Assembly: GCA_012689325.1 (NCBI GenBank)
Contig: JAAYEA010000371.1
Location: forward strand, 1 to 46,207
Source of the DNA: Chloroflexota bacterium
GTDB taxonomy: Bacteria; Chloroflexota; Anaerolineae; JAAYEA01
Length of the DNA: 46,207 bases
Direction: 5' to 3'
The notes under the pieces were generated by a model. It worked only from the letters and a program-made list of their open reading frames with translations. It did no database searches and had not been told where the DNA came from. Position numbers and translations under genes: made by a program. Shown in pieces: positions 18,096-24,710 of this stretch (the first letter of the stretch is position 1; each line of letters begins with the position of its first letter).

Positions 18096-18124
18096 TTGAC
18101 TTGTGCGCGGAATAGGTGTAGAAT
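18096..18124 (+). promoter_or_regulatory. Promoter of the rsgA leader
   Basis: TTGACT (18096-18101), a 17-base spacer and TAGAAT (18119-18124), followed by a leader of about 310 bases before rsgA. Confidence 0.68.
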
Positions 18125-18177
18125 AACCCTTGGCTTGCTCGAGTGGCAAGCTAGCCCAGAGGAAGGAGACGAGTCGC

Positions 18178-18270
18178 ATGAACAGAAGCTATGGTAATGC
18201 CAGCATCGCTGTTTGTTTCGTCGATCCTGTCTTCCACTCTCGGGCCAATCGGATCGAAAAGGGCGCTTGA
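18178..18270 (+). CDS. Possible 30-codon leader peptide upstream of rsgA
   Basis: ATG 18178 to TGA 18270 encodes 30 residues, from MNRSYGNASIAVCF to RIEKGA. AGGAAGGAG lies nine bases upstream, a strong ribosome site for an otherwise unexplained ORF. Its stop codon falls in the loop of a GGGCG/CGCCC hairpin (18261-18275). I do not recognise the peptide. It has no run of one amino acid such as a classical amino-acid attenuator would have. A role as a translated sensor for the tandem terminators downstream is inference. Confidence 0.45.
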   Translation: MNRSYGNASIAVCFVDPVFHSRANRIEKGA

Positions 18271-18297
18271 CGCCCTCTTGCAGTTGCTAGACCCCCT

Positions 18298-18339
18298 GGC
18301 CATGAGTGGCGACTTGATCGCATAGCTCGTGGCCTTTTT
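18298..18339 (+). terminator. Terminator T1 in the rsgA leader
   Basis: GGCCATGAG (18298-18306) pairs with CTCGTGGCC (18326-18334), with one G-U pair, around an inner GCGA/TCGC stem, and is followed by TTTTT (18335-18339). It would end a transcript of about 205 bases from the promoter at 18096. Confidence 0.7.
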
Positions 18340-18378
18340 GTGTCTCAAGGGCAGGGCGTCCCAGGGACGAGTCCGCCA

Positions 18379-18413
18379 AGCGGGGCCACGAGCCAGGTCG
18401 TGGCCCCGCTTTT
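18379..18413 (+). terminator. Terminator T2 immediately upstream of rsgA
   Basis: GCGGGGCCACGA (18380-18391) pairs perfectly with TCGTGGCCCCGC (18398-18409) around a six-base loop and is followed by TTTT (18410-18413). Its left arm is also perfectly complementary over 10 bases (18384-18393) to the right arm of T1 (18325-18334), so the two structures compete. Confidence 0.75.
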
Positions 18414-18439
18414 GCGTCCTGTTTCGGAGGGTATGGATC

Positions 18440-19624
18440 GTGGCAACGCGGAAAGAGAAAGCGATACAGCAGTGGCGGGAAGAGAAGGCGGCTCGGGCGG
18501 AGCACAAAGAGGTTCGCCCTAACCGGAAACCCAAGCGGACTCGCCAGAAAGAGTGGAACCAGTTCACCTTTTCTGATCCGGAGGACTGGCTGGACGTCGA
18601 CTATGATCGAAACGAGCGGGTGATGCCCCATGGGGAGCAGTCCGCCTGGCGCGACACCGTGACGGCGACCACCATTGAGCTGGATCGAAAGCCCCAAGAG
18701 GAGCAGCCGGTGGGCGAAGGCTGGATGCGGGGCCTGGTGGTAGAGGTGGCCGCGGGACTCTATCGCGTTCGGGTGGAGGAGCGCGAGTTGCTCTGCTCGG
18801 TGCGGGGCTCCCTCTCGGTGGAAGACACCAACTATACCAATATCGTCGCGGTGGGCGACGATGTGCTGTTCAGCGAGTCCCTGGAGCAAGAGGGTGTCAT
18901 TGAGCGGGTGCTGCCGCGCCGCAGCGTCTTGGCCCGCCCAGACGTGTTCTATGGCCATTTGAACCAGGTGATCGTGGCCAATGTGGACCAGGTGCTGATC
19001 GTGGCCTCCTGGCGAGAGCCGCACATCTGGCTGGAACTGATCGATCGCTATCTCGTCTCTTCCAGGCTGCACAACCTCACGCCGGTGATCTGCGTGAACA
19101 AGACAGACCTGGCGGAGAGCCTGGCCGAGTGCCGCGCCGAGATGAAGCCCTACATCCAGTTGGGCTATGAGGTGATCTACACCAGCGCCATGGAGGGGCG
19201 AGGCATCAAGCAACTGCGGGGGCTGCTGCGGGACAAGGTGACCGTGTTGGCCGGCATGTCCGGCGTTGGCAAGAGCTCGCTGCTGAAGGCGATCCAGCCC
19301 GGCCTGGATATCCGGGTGCGGGACGTGAGCGACCATTGGCACGAGGGGCGCCACACCACCACACAGGTGAACATGCTCCCGCTGGAGATGGGCGGGTACG
19401 TGGTGGACACTCCGGGCATTCGCGAGTTTGGGCTCAGCGGGTTGCACCGCGACGAGCTGGCGGGGTACTATCCCGAGTTCTTGACGGCGGGCGATTGCCG
19501 TTTCTCGGACTGCGTCCACCTGGATGAGCCCGAGTGCGCCGTGCGGCGCGCCGTCGAGGCGGGAGAGATCTCCGAGACGCGGTACTACAACTACCTCAAG
19601 ATCTATGAGACCCTGCCCGAGTAG
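18440..19624 (+). CDS. rsgA: Small-ribosomal-subunit biogenesis GTPase RsgA
   Basis: This 394-residue protein is a circularly permuted GTPase: an OB-fold region is followed by NKTD (G4, near 220), GMSGVGKSS (G1, near 272) and VDTPGIREFG (G3, near 322), then a zinc-binding DCRFSDCVHLDEPEC segment. RsgA helps mature the 30S decoding centre. The GTG at 18440 is chosen because GGAGG lies nine bases upstream; a longer frame would run back through terminator T2. The N-terminal ~80 residues are Lys/Arg-rich and longer than in E. coli, probably an RNA-binding tail. It is preceded by a structured leader. Confidence 0.93.
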   Translation: MATRKEKAIQQWREEKAARAEHKEVRPNRKPKRTRQKEWNQFTFSDPEDWLDVDYDRNERVMPHGEQSAWRDTVTATTIELDRKPQEEQPVGEGWMRGLVVEVAAGLYRVRVEERELLCSVRGSLSVEDTNYTNIVAVGDDVLFSESLEQEGVIERVLPRRSVLARPDVFYGHLNQVIVANVDQVLIVASWREPHIWLELIDRYLVSSRLHNLTPVICVNKTDLAESLAECRAEMKPYIQLGYEVIYTSAMEGRGIKQLRGLLRDKVTVLAGMSGVGKSSLLKAIQPGLDIRVRDVSDHWHEGRHTTTQVNMLPLEMGGYVVDTPGIREFGLSGLHRDELAGYYPEFLTAGDCRFSDCVHLDEPECAVRRAVEAGEISETRYYNYLKIYETLPE

Positions 19625-19676
19625 AACGAATTTTCTAGTCGCGCGCAGGAATATGACGCCACTAGACATGTATGTG

Positions 19677-19685
19677 TGCTATAGT
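19677..19685 (+). promoter_or_regulatory. Extended -10 promoter for the first ABC exporter pair
   Basis: TGC-TATAGT (-10 at 19680-19685) lies about 58 bases before the start at 19744. No good -35 is present, as is usual for extended -10 promoters. Confidence 0.45.
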
Positions 19686-19743
19686 AACGTGGGTCTGCGC
19701 GCCAGGGGGCGGCAGCGAACCTGCGTCAGGGAAGGGGACTACT

Positions 19744-21555
19744 ATGGCGGCAACTGACAAGCGAACCTATCTCGACCTGCGGGCGACGCTTTCGGACAAC
19801 CGACTGCTGGGGCTCTGGCGGCTGGCGACCGGCTATCGCCTTCCTTATCTCTGGGCCACGCTCAGCCTCGCGGTGGCCACCATCGCCAAGACGACGACCT
19901 ATCTCTTGCTCGCCTACTTTGTGGACCATGTGCTGGGGCAGAATCGGGGCACGGCCATTCTGGCTTGGGTGGCGGCGGGCTTTGTGGGCCTGGCGGCGCT
20001 GGAGGGCGGATCAAGCCTGCTGAGCGGCTGGCTCACTGCCAAGACGTCGGAGGGCATCATCCGGCGGCTGCGCAACTATCTATTCGACCAGGTGCAGCGG
20101 CTCTCCTTTGCCTATCACAGCAAGACCAAGACCGGAGACCTGATTCAGCGGTCCACGTCCGATGTGGATGCCGTGCGTCGTTTCTACGCCGATCAGGCCA
20201 TCGGCATGGCTCGCATCGCGATCTCGTTCGCGATCAACTGGGCCGCGTTGCTGAACCTGAGCTGGCAACTGGGGCTGATCTCAGTGCTGGTGATCCCGCC
20301 CGTCGTGGCGGTCTCGGTCTACTTTTTCCGGCGGGTCTCCAAGGTCTATGAAGGCTATCAGGAACAGGAGGCCAAACTCTCCACCGTGTTGCAGGAGAAC
20401 CTCAGCGGCGTGCGCGTGGTGAAGGCCTTTGCGCGGCAGGATTATGAGCGGGCCAAGTTCGAGGCCGAGAACATCGAAAAGTTCCGCCGCGGCAAAAAGA
20501 TGACCAACATGCACGCCACCTACTGGCCGCTCACGGATATCCTGTGCGGGGTCCAGATGGTGGGCGGGTACATCGTCGGCGCGCTGATGGCCATCAATGG
20601 GGACATCTCGGTGGGCACCTACCTGGCCTATACGGCGCTGATCACGCGGATCATTTGGCCGATGCGCAACCTTGGCCGGCTGATCGTGCAGACCTCAACC
20701 GGGCTGGTGTCTTACGGGCGTCTCGTCGAGATCATCAAGCAGGACCGCGAACCCATGGACGAGGGCGACTATCTGCCCGAGGGGCCGGTGCGCGGCGAGG
20801 TGGCTTTCGACCGAGTGAGTTTTGCCTACGAGGGGGATCAGGCGGTGCTGGAGGATATCGACTTGCACTGCGCCCCGGGGGCGGTGGTCGCCCTGCTCGG
20901 GTCGACTGGCTCGGGCAAGACCTCGCTGGTCAACCTTCTGCCGCGGTTCTACGAGTACAGCGGCGGAAGCCTGCGGCTGGATGGTGTGGAGCTCAATCGC
21001 TACCCGCGGCGCTATCTGCGGCAGCAGATCGGCATCGTGGAGCAGGAGCCCTTCCTCTTCTCCCGGAGCATCCGCGAGAACATCACCTACGGGGTGGGGC
21101 GGGAGGTCTCCGACGAGGAGGTGGAAGCGGCGGCGCGCGCCGCTGCCATCCACGACGTGATCATGACCTTCCCCGAGGGCTACAAGACCCTGGTGGGCGA
21201 GAAAGGCGTCACGCTCTCCGGCGGGCAGAAGCAGCGCGTCTCCATCGCGCGAACGCTGCTCAAGAACCCGCGAATCCTAATCCTGGACGACTCGACCTCC
21301 TCGGTGGACACCGAGACCGAGGCCGATATTCGGGAGGCTCTGGAGAAGCTCATGCAGGACCGCACCACCTTTATCATCGCCCACCGGGTGCAGAGCGTGC
21401 AGAACGCCGACGCCATCCTGGTTATGGACAAGGGGCGCATCGTGGAGCGCGGGACGCACCAAGAGCTGCTGGCGACCGGCGGCACCTATCGTCGCATCTA
21501 TGACATGCAGGCTCGGATCGAGGCTGAGCTGGAAAGGGAGGTCAGCGGTGTCTGA
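19744..21555 (+). CDS. ABC exporter half-transporter A (permease plus ATPase)
   Basis: This 603-residue protein has six membrane segments followed by an ATPase domain. Walker A is GSTGSGKTS (near 386), the signature is the canonical LSGGQKQR (near 490), and Walker B is ILILDDSTS (near 513), with Asp where the catalytic Glu normally sits. It should therefore pair with the next gene product, whose sites are complementary. It exports drugs, lipids or peptides across the membrane. The ATG at 19744 is preceded by GGGAAGGGG. It ends inside the start of the next gene (8-base overlap). Confidence 0.93.
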
Positions 21556-23404
21556 GGCCTACTTTGAGGAAGAGGAGTTCACTACCCAGTTCAACGGCAA
21601 GACCGTCCTGCGGATCCTGAAGCAGGCCTTGCCGCACTGGAAGATGCTGATCGGGTTCGTGGCGGCCATCGCGGTCACCTCGGTGCTCGACTCGTACTTT
21701 ACCTACCTGGGCAAGCGGATGATCGACGAGGGTATCGCCGTCGGCAACCGGGGGGCGCTGGCCGGGATCGCCGCTGCCTACGTTGGCCTGATGCTGATCC
21801 AGGCGGTCACCGTCTTCTTTTTCATCCGGAACGCCGGCGTGCTGGGCGAGCGCATCACCTACGACCTGCGGAAAAAGATGTTCGACCACCTGCAGGCGCT
21901 GTCGTTCAGCTACTATAGCCGGACACCGATCGGCTGGATCATGTCTCGCGTGACCTCGGACTCGGAGCGCATCGCCGAGCTGGTGACCTGGGGGCTGTTG
22001 GACGTGGTCTGGGCCACGATGAATATCACCACGGCGCTGGTGTTCATGGCGACGATCAACGCGCGCCTGGCGCTGGTGGTGTTCGCGATGGTGCCGATCC
22101 TGGTCTATGTGGCGGTGCGCTTCAAGACCAAGATCATCGTGGAATACCGCAACGTGCGCAAGGTGAACAGCAAGATCACCGGGGCGTACAATGAGAACAT
22201 CACCGGGGTGCGCGTGGTCAAGGCGCTCTGCCGAGAGGAGCGGAACCTGGACGAGTTCGGCGGCCTCACGGGCGAGATGTACCGTGCCGCGGTCCGGGCA
22301 GCGTGGCTTTCGGCGCTCTTTTTGCCGACGGTGCAGATCATCAGCGCCCTAGTGGTGGGGGTCATCGTCTGGTATGGCGGCCTGCAGGTGGAGCTCGGCG
22401 CCCTGACCATCGGCGGCATCCAGGCCTTCGTCTCGTACATCACGTTCATGATGTGGCCAATCCAAGACCTGGCGAGGGTCTATGCGGGGATGCAGAACTC
22501 GATCGCCTCGGCGGAGCGGGTCTTTTCGCTGATCGACGCGGTGCCGGAAGTGCAGGACCGCGAGGGCGCCGTGGACCCCGGGACCATCGCGGGCGACATC
22601 GTGTTCGACCACGTGAGCTTTCGCTATGAGGACGACAAGCCGGTGTTGCAGGACTTTTCGCTGCAGGTCAGGCGGGGCGAGACCATCGCCCTGGTCGGCC
22701 CAACTGGCGGCGGCAAGACCACCATCGTGAACTTGATTGGGCGGTTCTATGAGCCGAAAGAGGGGCGCATCCTCATCGACGGACGTGACTATACGGAGCT
22801 CTCGCTGCACGCCATCCAGTCGCGGCTGGGCGTGGTGCTGCAGACGCCACACTTGTTCTCCGGCAGCGTCCGGGAGAACATTCGGTACGGGAGGCTAGAG
22901 GCCACCGATCAGGAGGTGGAGGAGGCGGCGAGGATCGCCAGCGCCCACGAGTTCATCGTCCACATGCCCAAGGGCTACGACGAGGAGGTGGGCGAGGGCG
23001 GCAACCTGCTCTCCGTCGGGCAGAAGCAGTTGATCAGCCTGGCGCGGGCGGTGCTTGCTCAGCCCGAAATCCTGATCATGGACGAGGCAACGAGCTCGGT
23101 GGACACGCTGACCGAGGCGCTGATCCAGCAGGGCATGGAGCGGGTGATGGAAGGCCGCACCACCTTTGTGATCGCGCACCGGCTCTCCACCATCAAGCGA
23201 GCCGATCGGATCATCGTCATCGAGAATGGCGGCGTCACCGAGATGGGCACCCATGCCGAGCTGCTGCGGGCCAAGGGCCACTACTACCGGCTCTACACGC
23301 GGCAGTTCCGCGCCGAGAGGGAGCAAGGCGTGAATCCCTTCGCGGAGCAGGAGACGGTGGAAGCGCCAGCCCTGGTGGCGGAAGCCGTGCCCGCGGACGA
23401 CTAG
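21548..23404 (+). CDS. ABC exporter half-transporter B (permease plus ATPase)
   Basis: This 618-residue partner has Walker [10 protein letters not shown] (near 383), a variant signature LSVGQKQL and an intact Walker [11 protein letters not shown] with the catalytic Glu. Together with half-transporter A this gives one canonical and one degenerate ATP site, the arrangement of heterodimeric exporters such as TM287/288, BmrCD and TmrAB. The start is a GTG at 21548 with GGGAGG six bases upstream. The C-terminal ~30 residues form an acidic tail. The substrate is unknown. Confidence 0.93.
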
Positions 23405-23642
23405 TCGAGCGGTACTGGAGATAATGAGAAGCCCTCCGCCGCGGGCGAAAGCGGCGAGAAGCGAGGTATGATATGCGCAAGAGCGGACTGATCGATAGGG
23501 TGGATCGCCCAATGGGCAAGAGCGCGTAGCACCGTCGCCAGGGGAGGCGCCCACGCCTCGCCCCGAGTCACGGTGCCGAATTCACAATCGCCTGTCCCGC
23601 GGCCGGATGGCCGAGGACCGTTCCAAGAAAGGGTAACGAACC

Positions 23643-24710
23643 GTGACCGCACACCATGTGGTGGCGCTGAGCAGCGCGGAAAGCGTCGCTCAGCGATACG
23701 AATCGTACGAAGAGATATTCGACCCGCCGAGCCGCGAGGAGCTGGCCTGGCGGGAGGGCAAGAGCCTGCGACGTCAAGGGACGCACCGGCAGGCACTGGA
23801 AGGCGACGGCAGCCCCGCCCTCGGCGCGGGCGTGGAAGGGTTGGAGGGAGGCTTTCGGCCTACCTACCGCCCCTCGCGCTTCGAGGAGGGCTGGCTGCTG
23901 GAATCGCTGCGGGCCTTTTACGAGGAGGGCCTGTTGCGGGACGTGCTGGCGCTGATCAAGGGCGGCAAAGAGGCCCACGTGTACCGCTGCGCCGCGCAGC
24001 CCACCACGGGGCTGGACCTGGTTGCTGCCAAGGTCTACCGCCCGCGCATGTTCCGGAACCTGCGTAACGACGCCCTCTATCGCCAGGGGCGGCAGATCCT
24101 TACCGAGGATGGGACGCCCGTCAGAAAGACCGATGACCGCGTGCTGCGGGCCGTTGGCAAAAAGACGGCCTTCGGGCAGCAGGTCTCGCACACCTCGTGG
24201 CTGATGCACGAGTTCGTGACACTGCGGCGGTTGCACCAGGCCGGGGCGGCCGTGCCGCAGCCGCTGGGCGCCAGCGAGAACGCCATCCTGATGAGCTACC
24301 TCGGCGATGAGCGCATGGCTGCGCCAACGCTGAACACGGTGACGCTGTCACACGCCGAAGCCAAGCGCCTCTTCCGTGAGGTGCTGCGCAACGTCGAGCT
24401 GATGCTCAAGCAGGGGATCGTCCACGGCGACCTTTCGGCCTACAACATCCTCTACTGGCAGGGCGAGATCCTGATCATCGACTTTCCCCAGGTAGTGGAT
24501 TGCCTGGGCAACGACCAGGCGCGGGATATCCTGCGGCGCGACCTGGCGCGGACGTGCGAGTACTTTGCCTCGCAAGGGGTCGAGTGCGATGCGGAGGCGC
24601 TAACGGGCGACCTGTGGGGCCAGTATGTCGGCTCCATGCTGCGGGAGCAACTCGCCGACTTGTCCATGCGCGAATATGAGCGCGGGACGGAGGCGATCGA
24701 GGAAGCCTAG
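23643..24710 (+). CDS. RIO-family serine/threonine protein kinase
   Basis: This 355-residue protein has the RIO kinase fold: nucleotide-loop KGGKEAHVYRC, the lysine in VAAKVYRP (near 128), catalytic HGDLSAYNILYW (near 260) and metal-binding IDFPQVVD (near 278), closely paralleling RIO1. About 90 N-terminal residues carry a helical region ahead of the kinase core. RIO kinases act on pre-ribosomal particles in archaea and eukaryotes; the bacterial role is not known. The start is a GTG at 23643. Its position after rsgA and the exporters may or may not be functional. A strong terminator ends it. Confidence 0.88.
   Translation: MTAHHVVALSSAESVAQRYESYEEIFDPPSREELAWREGKSLRRQGTHRQALEGDGSPALGAGVEGLEGGFRPTYRPSRFEEGWLLESLRAFYEEGLLRDVLALIKGGKEAHVYRCAAQPTTGLDLVAAKVYRPRMFRNLRNDALYRQGRQILTEDGTPVRKTDDRVLRAVGKKTAFGQQVSHTSWLMHEFVTLRRLHQAGAAVPQPLGASENAILMSYLGDERMAAPTLNTVTLSHAEAKRLFREVLRNVELMLKQGIVHGDLSAYNILYWQGEILIIDFPQVVDCLGNDQARDILRRDLARTCEYFASQGVECDAEALTGDLWGQYVGSMLREQLADLSMREYERGTEAIEEA

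Follow-up and report, generated by a model that had tools for sequence, protein, structure and literature searches.

Why does the rsgA gene of a Chloroflexota bacterium lie behind a small open reading frame and two terminators? The question is raised by a 385-nt leader that stretches from the end of a ZIP transporter gene (18,055) to the GTG start of rsgA (18,440) within the 46,207 nt of DNA analyzed here, which we refer to as the window. The initial annotation had described a promoter, a 30-codon upstream open reading frame (uORF), two terminators (T1 and T2) and a 10-bp match between terminator arms ahead of rsgA, and our analysis recovered every one of these elements in the same positions. 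The features of the locus are as follows.

18,096–18,124, + strand: putative sigma-70-type promoter (−35 TTGACT at 18,096–18,101, −10 TAGAAT at 18,119–18,124, 17-nt spacer, 10/12 matches)
18,130–18,156, + strand: 5′ hairpin, from folding, just past the expected transcription start and before the uORF Shine-Dalgarno (SD) sequence
18,156–18,180, + strand: segment 1, the uORF ribosome-binding site (RBS), partner of segment 2 according to duplex energies in 23 leaders
18,161–18,168, + strand: uORF SD, GGAAGGAG, read from the sequence
18,178–18,270, + strand: predicted leader ORF of 30 codons, MNRSYGNASIAVCFVDPVFHSRANRIEKGA, with counterparts in 21 of 21 rsgA leaders
18,218–18,246, + strand: segment 2, within the uORF, predicted to pair with segment 1 (through 18,218–18,244) or with the 5′ half of T1
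18,298–18,334, + strand: putative terminator T1 (left arm 18,298–18,307, right arm 18,325–18,334, U-tract of T5 at 18,335–18,339)
18,325–18,334, + strand: T1 right arm, which by covariation can pair with the T2 left arm at 18,384–18,393
18,380–18,409, + strand: putative terminator T2 (left arm 18,380–18,393, right arm 18,396–18,409, U-tract of T4 at 18,410–18,413)
18,426–18,433, + strand: rsgA SD region, GGAGGG, which may pair with the sequence that separates the uORF from T1
18,440–19,624, + strand: rsgA, N-terminally extended, 394 aa, GTG start (Pfam RsgA_GTPase 6e-56 and RsgA_N; TIGR00157 3e-70)
19,753–21,555, + strand: ABC exporter 1 (Pfam), 61% identical to a gene of genome G130 that is itself preceded by such a leader
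21,560–23,404, + strand: ABC exporter 2 (Pfam)
23,643–24,710, + strand: RIO-domain kinase gene (Pfam), whose homologues elsewhere have the leader and whose window copy lacks it

The RsgA protein scores over the curated cut-offs (189 bits against 30 for Pfam, 237 against 100 for TIGR00157). Its N-terminal extension of ~90 residues (18,440–18,730) is rich in Lys and Arg and is common to the leader-bearing group of Chloroflexota. The window holds leader, rsgA, the two ABC genes and the RIO gene in that order on one strand (18,440–24,710), and the rsgA-ABC-ABC order is also kept in G001 (L056). Both terminator hairpins stand out against dinucleotide shuffles, with z values of −4.7 for T1 and −5.1 for T2 and 0 of 200 shuffles folding as well, and the fold of the whole leader has a z of −4.3. 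The hairpin at 18,130–18,156 is also strong. Neither T1 nor T2 was listed by a simple terminator scan of the window, likely because that scan was limited to loops of at most 8 and to at least 5 T in 8. Rfam gave no match at the gathering threshold, either for the leader of the window or for those of ten further loci; two weak sub-threshold hits fell on the other strand only. The T1 right arm, GCTCGTGGCC (18,325–18,334), is the exact reverse complement of GGCCACGAGC in the T2 left arm (18,384–18,393).

A DNA search of 60 relatives returned G001, which belongs to a different genus of the family and has T1 and T2 hairpins before its rsgA. Collection of rsgA upstream regions by protein search, which covered named contigs and as many as 396 genomes of the class, then revealed a leader of the same arrangement in 21 Chloroflexota genomes belonging to many families. 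These 21 rsgA genes share a layout of promoter, AAGGAGG-type SD, uORF of 20–30 codons and T1 placed 21–81 nt past the uORF stop, and most of them have a second hairpin with similar arms. An SD-led uORF of 20–37 codons, with a strong SD and a start codon, is found in 23 of 24 leaders, and a promoter with at least 10/12 matches precedes the uORF in 20 of 23, compared to 0.9% in shuffles. A T-run after T1 is present in almost all leaders, and the genes upstream of the leader vary between genomes. The hairpin loops vary widely in length. The uORF reading frame is kept across a 3-nt indel (G052 versus G125). The uORF peptides are poorly conserved, while spacing and RNA pairing are kept; thus, a stalling signal is not readable from the peptides. 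The T1 arm pattern GGCCAYGAG-N6-30-CTCRTGGCC-NTTT occurred once each in 9 of 100 relatives and never in a reversed control, which argues that T1 is not a common genomic terminator; its single-copy occurrence rules out a generic terminator or repeat. Matches to this pattern in G057, G128, G377 and G389 were discarded as coding sequence or normal bidirectional terminators that lack a uORF. Judged by sequence comparison, the arrangement of the rsgA leader is beyond chance. Its distribution is restricted: neither the extended rsgA of one family (f35) nor the second rsgA gene in G003 has the leader, it preceded 4 of 82 other rsgA loci, all in Chloroflexota and none outside that phylum, and the exact leader pattern occurred in 0 of 141 sampled genomes of the phylum outside the class.

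The initial annotation had proposed that the T1 right arm, if T1 is prevented, can capture the T2 left arm and so stop T2 from forming, and had named covariance in relatives as one check. We scored covariation in the 9-nt arm cores of 29 tandem leaders against 500 shuffles, with arms picked by eye and among related sequences that are not independent. Standard pairs filled 96.2% of cells for T1, 94.6% for the T1 right arm with the T2 left arm, 89.3% for T2 and 82.0% for the T1 left arm with the T2 right arm, each above 500 of 500 shuffles. For T1, 46 cells had changed on both sides, and 0 of 500 shuffles were as good. Pairing is, indeed, kept in relatives while the sequence changes. Were T2 no more than a duplicate of T1, both cross pairings would be expected to be kept equally well; instead, the pairing of T1 right arm and T2 left arm is kept better than its counterpart (Wilcoxon p 2.5e-4). 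The counterpart, the weakest of the four pairings, was rejected as an alternative state. In G031, G192 and SAR202, the T2 left arm still matches the T1 right arm although the T2 right arm has diverged or T2 is built from different bases; the same holds for the leaders of a RIO gene in G206 (L246) and an ABC gene in G130 (L256). In folding calculations, the cross pairing is fully formed, with 10–12 pairs, in 18 of 18 leaders tested before the T2 right arm is made, and once that arm is made T2 wins at equilibrium in most leaders, the window included. Thus, the complementarity behind the proposed capture holds up and is maintained by compensatory change, but in the window the hindrance of T2 would be kinetic only. 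Comparison supports the relay as a conserved pairing, and the folding makes it plausible as a kinetic effect. A second terminator is absent from 6 of 24 leaders, indicating that the relay is not essential.

The proposed scheme was incomplete in one respect, as it contained no element that would prevent T1. Such an element exists, and consists of the 3′ part of the uORF together with the T1 5′ half. We compared duplex energies of cognate segments with those of pairs swapped between genomes (permutation, 23 leaders). The uORF RBS paired with the uORF body (1:2) at −24.7 kcal/mol in cognate and −19.2 kcal/mol in non-cognate combinations (p 5e-5), and the uORF body paired with the T1 5′ half (2:3) at −21.2 versus −19.4 (p 0.0016; −22.6 in G000). 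Cognate pairs were also better than swapped ones for T1, for T2 and for the T1 right arm with the T2 left arm (each p 5e-5). The 1:2 and 2:3 pairings mostly occupy one stretch of the uORF and are therefore mutually exclusive; in the window, segment 2 pairs with the T1 5′ half via CCACTCTCGGGCC (18,234–18,246). By these energies, the leader follows the classical 1:2/2:3/3:4 logic. The stretch after the uORF also pairs better with its cognate downstream RBS region than with swapped ones (p 7.5e-4, 23 leaders), and a pairing of the uORF RBS with this stretch was set aside as borderline (p 0.048). A CTCC-type stretch between the uORF and T1 matches the rsgA SD region over 8–10 nt in L031, L032 and L029; its pairing with that region is a possible second, translational layer.

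We modeled the influence of the ribosome by placing it at each codon and folding only the RNA downstream of it. T1 was lost with an early ribosome (about codons 2–9) and present with a late one or none. This switch, strictly defined, with T1 lost for a ribosome at codons 2–8 and formed for a late one or none, was found in 14 of 21 rsgA-type leaders, compared to 0.3 expected from dinucleotide shuffles of uORF plus spacer. Leaders outside the set from which the idea was formed showed it as well, specifically 7 of 20 RIO leaders (0.5 expected) and 2 of 8 standard rsgA leaders (0 expected). It was not seen in 7 of the 21 rsgA-type, 13 of the 20 RIO and 4 of 4 ABC leaders tested. At the level of the family, the modeling thus indicates a mutually exclusive antiterminator governed by where the ribosome is on the uORF. 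In the window copy, the model shows the switch only in a truncated transcript and not at equilibrium. Wherever the ribosome is placed, the equilibrium fold of the window leader retains T1, with P about 0.9–1.0. When the polymerase is still in the T1 loop, the T1 left arm is predicted to be paired to the uORF region, including codons 19–23, through about 11–12 pairs. Because T1 forms at equilibrium regardless of the ribosome, the switch here must be kinetic, or the copy has been weakened. This modeled equilibrium T1 is our main reservation about the window locus.

RIO-kinase and ABC exporter genes share the leader, which is therefore not specific to rsgA. The T1 pattern also led to the leader of an ABC exporter gene in each of two related genomes, to a leader in G063 that is an orphan and to tandem terminators ahead of a RIO-kinase gene, and a uORF plus terminator was present at 14 of 30 RIO loci of the class. 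A search that ignored gene identity, with an SD containing GGCGYR, a start codon and YGCGCCTG as its pattern, gave 28 matches in 392 genomes and 2 in the reversed control. The 28 comprised 14 before RIO kinases, 8 before rsgA, 3 before ABC exporters (ABC_membrane) and 3 chance matches, a few being assigned by sequence inspection only. One leader lies ahead of a RIO-rsgA pair in G096. In G130, a separate leader, with T1 and a T2 left arm to match, precedes the orthologue of ABC exporter 1 of the window. Genes for standard RsgA, which lacks the N-terminal extension, are also preceded by the leader. Each of the families in the window cluster (rsgA, ABC exporter and RIO) has a leader of the same kind elsewhere. 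A target set of RsgA, RIO kinase and ABC exporters fits a response to translation stress, that is, to stalled or defective ribosomes.

Taken with the conserved pairings and the modeling, this makes it probable that the leader is a ribosome-mediated transcription attenuator. The ribosome-state sensor suggested by the initial annotation remains the best explanation of the pairing covariation and the modeled ribosome dependence, once the switch element missing from its scheme is supplied. Transcription would start ~50 nt upstream of the short, well-initiated uORF. With no ribosome, segment 1 would pair with segment 2, T1 would form and transcription would stop. A freely moving ribosome would cover segment 2 at the moment of decision, and T1 would again form and stop transcription. 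A ribosome that stalls in the initial third of the uORF, or moves slowly there, would cover segment 1 and leave segment 2 free to pair with the T1 5′ half, so that T1 could not form. The freed T1 right arm would then pair with the T2 left arm once made, hindering the second terminator, and the polymerase would run on through rsgA into the ABC exporter genes. Impaired translation elongation or initiation would presumably be the signal. Archaeal and eukaryotic relatives of the RIO kinases belong to small-subunit maturation, and the shared leader ties RsgA to the bacterial RIO kinases. A wider proposal, tenable though we lean slightly against it, is that Chloroflexota respond to ribosome stalling through a tandem relay attenuator whose regulon comprises RsgA, a bacterial RIO kinase and ABC exporters, which would put the RIO kinase in a 30S-maturation or ribosome-stress pathway.

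Termination might instead be set by RsgA or a ribosomal protein that binds the leader hairpins, with the uORF incidental or only a folding aid. The basic, Lys/Arg-rich extension of RsgA and the recognizable sequence that the T1 arms keep besides their pairing (GCCAYGAG/GCCACGGG) would suit such autoregulation, which we nevertheless consider unlikely, as RIO and ABC genes, which do not encode RNA-binding assembly GTPases, have the leader too, as does RsgA without the extension, the arm sequences change with compensation, and the SD-led uORF of 20–37 codons is kept in 23 of 24 leaders. A conserved promoter between the upstream gene and the uORF, upstream genes that differ between genomes, covariation of both the SD hairpin and the uORF-T1 pairing, and the tie to specific downstream genes make it slightly less likely still that T1 and T2 simply serve as tandem terminators for the upstream gene or for a small RNA, in which case rsgA would have its promoter at another site and the uORF would be spurious, even though both resemble normal intrinsic terminators and six leaders have a single one.

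The uORF and the 1:2/2:3/3:4 layout recall attenuators of the trp type, in which the uORF senses charged tRNA. None of the listed uORFs has a codon run for a single amino acid or a residue shared with the others, however, and the target genes are not biosynthetic, so that a classical amino-acid attenuator is highly improbable. We give just as little credence to control that is mainly translational, in which the rsgA RBS is paired with the stretch between the uORF and T1, and the hairpins do no more than bring these two into contact. The cognate preference of that pairing and the 8–10-nt matches in G192, G179 and G130 speak for it, but almost every leader has a T-run behind T1, the pairing is weak in G277, G303 and G388, and the ribosome-position dependence of T1 is the stronger signal. 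Translational control may coexist with attenuation, the reading that we prefer.

Among known systems, the ermK leader has two terminators in tandem. It controls an rRNA methylase in Firmicutes, and it resembles the Chloroflexota leader in architecture. Its transcription attenuation behind a leader peptide in Bacillus is taken here as cited in the study of bmrB (PMC4191407). The bmrB leader of bmrCD in Bacillus subtilis provides ribosome-mediated transcription attenuation of a heterodimeric ABC exporter (PMC4191407). Like the Chloroflexota leader, it combines a short upstream ORF, an anti-antiterminator/antiterminator/terminator series and a ribosome sensor, and the window cluster also has two ABC exporter genes; however, the bmrB terminator lies inside the leader ORF (PMC4191407), whereas the Chloroflexota terminators follow the uORF, mostly as a tandem pair, and rsgA comes first among the genes. 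The rli80 leader of hflXr in Listeria is an attenuator that also controls a ribosome-associated GTPase, with a uORF overlapping the anti-antiterminator region followed by antiterminator and terminator (PMC6310831). It encodes a 14-aa peptide with an RLR motif, whereas the Chloroflexota peptides have 20–30 aa and no such conserved motif, and no tandem terminators like those of the Chloroflexota leader are described for it (PMC6310831). HflXr splits ribosomes, whereas RsgA matures 30S subunits. The toiL uORF of topAI in Escherichia coli similarly reads general translation stress through ribosome stalling, but acts on the RBS and Rho rather than on intrinsic terminators (PMC12121999). The bmrCD, hflXr and toiL systems are all uORF attenuators that sense ribosome-targeting drugs (PMC4191407, PMC6310831, PMC12121999), and the Chloroflexota leader agrees with them in anatomy. 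In the literature that we searched on rsgA and attenuation and on Chloroflexi and uORFs, we found no account of an attenuator that controls rsgA or a RIO kinase, nor of one from Chloroflexota, in agreement with the initial annotation as regards rsgA. Thus, as far as we found, the targets, the phylum and the tandem relay are new, whereas ribosome-mediated transcription attenuation is already known. Tandem terminators with interlocking arms would make an economical low-leak switch that still opens fully.

Divergent and decaying forms of the leader were also seen. In another class, Oscillochloris and Candidatus Chloroploca mongolica (L116, L139) have a uORF and terminators ~570 nt upstream of rsgA, with two terminators in Chloroploca and one found in Oscillochloris. 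The orphan leader of G063 (L169) keeps the uORF and T1 with no rsgA behind it, and G047 (L055) keeps both leader terminators before an rsgA that reads as a short broken remnant. In G003 (L024), T1 has decayed in its left arm and U-tract, and its right arm is still an exact match to the T2 left arm over 9 nt.
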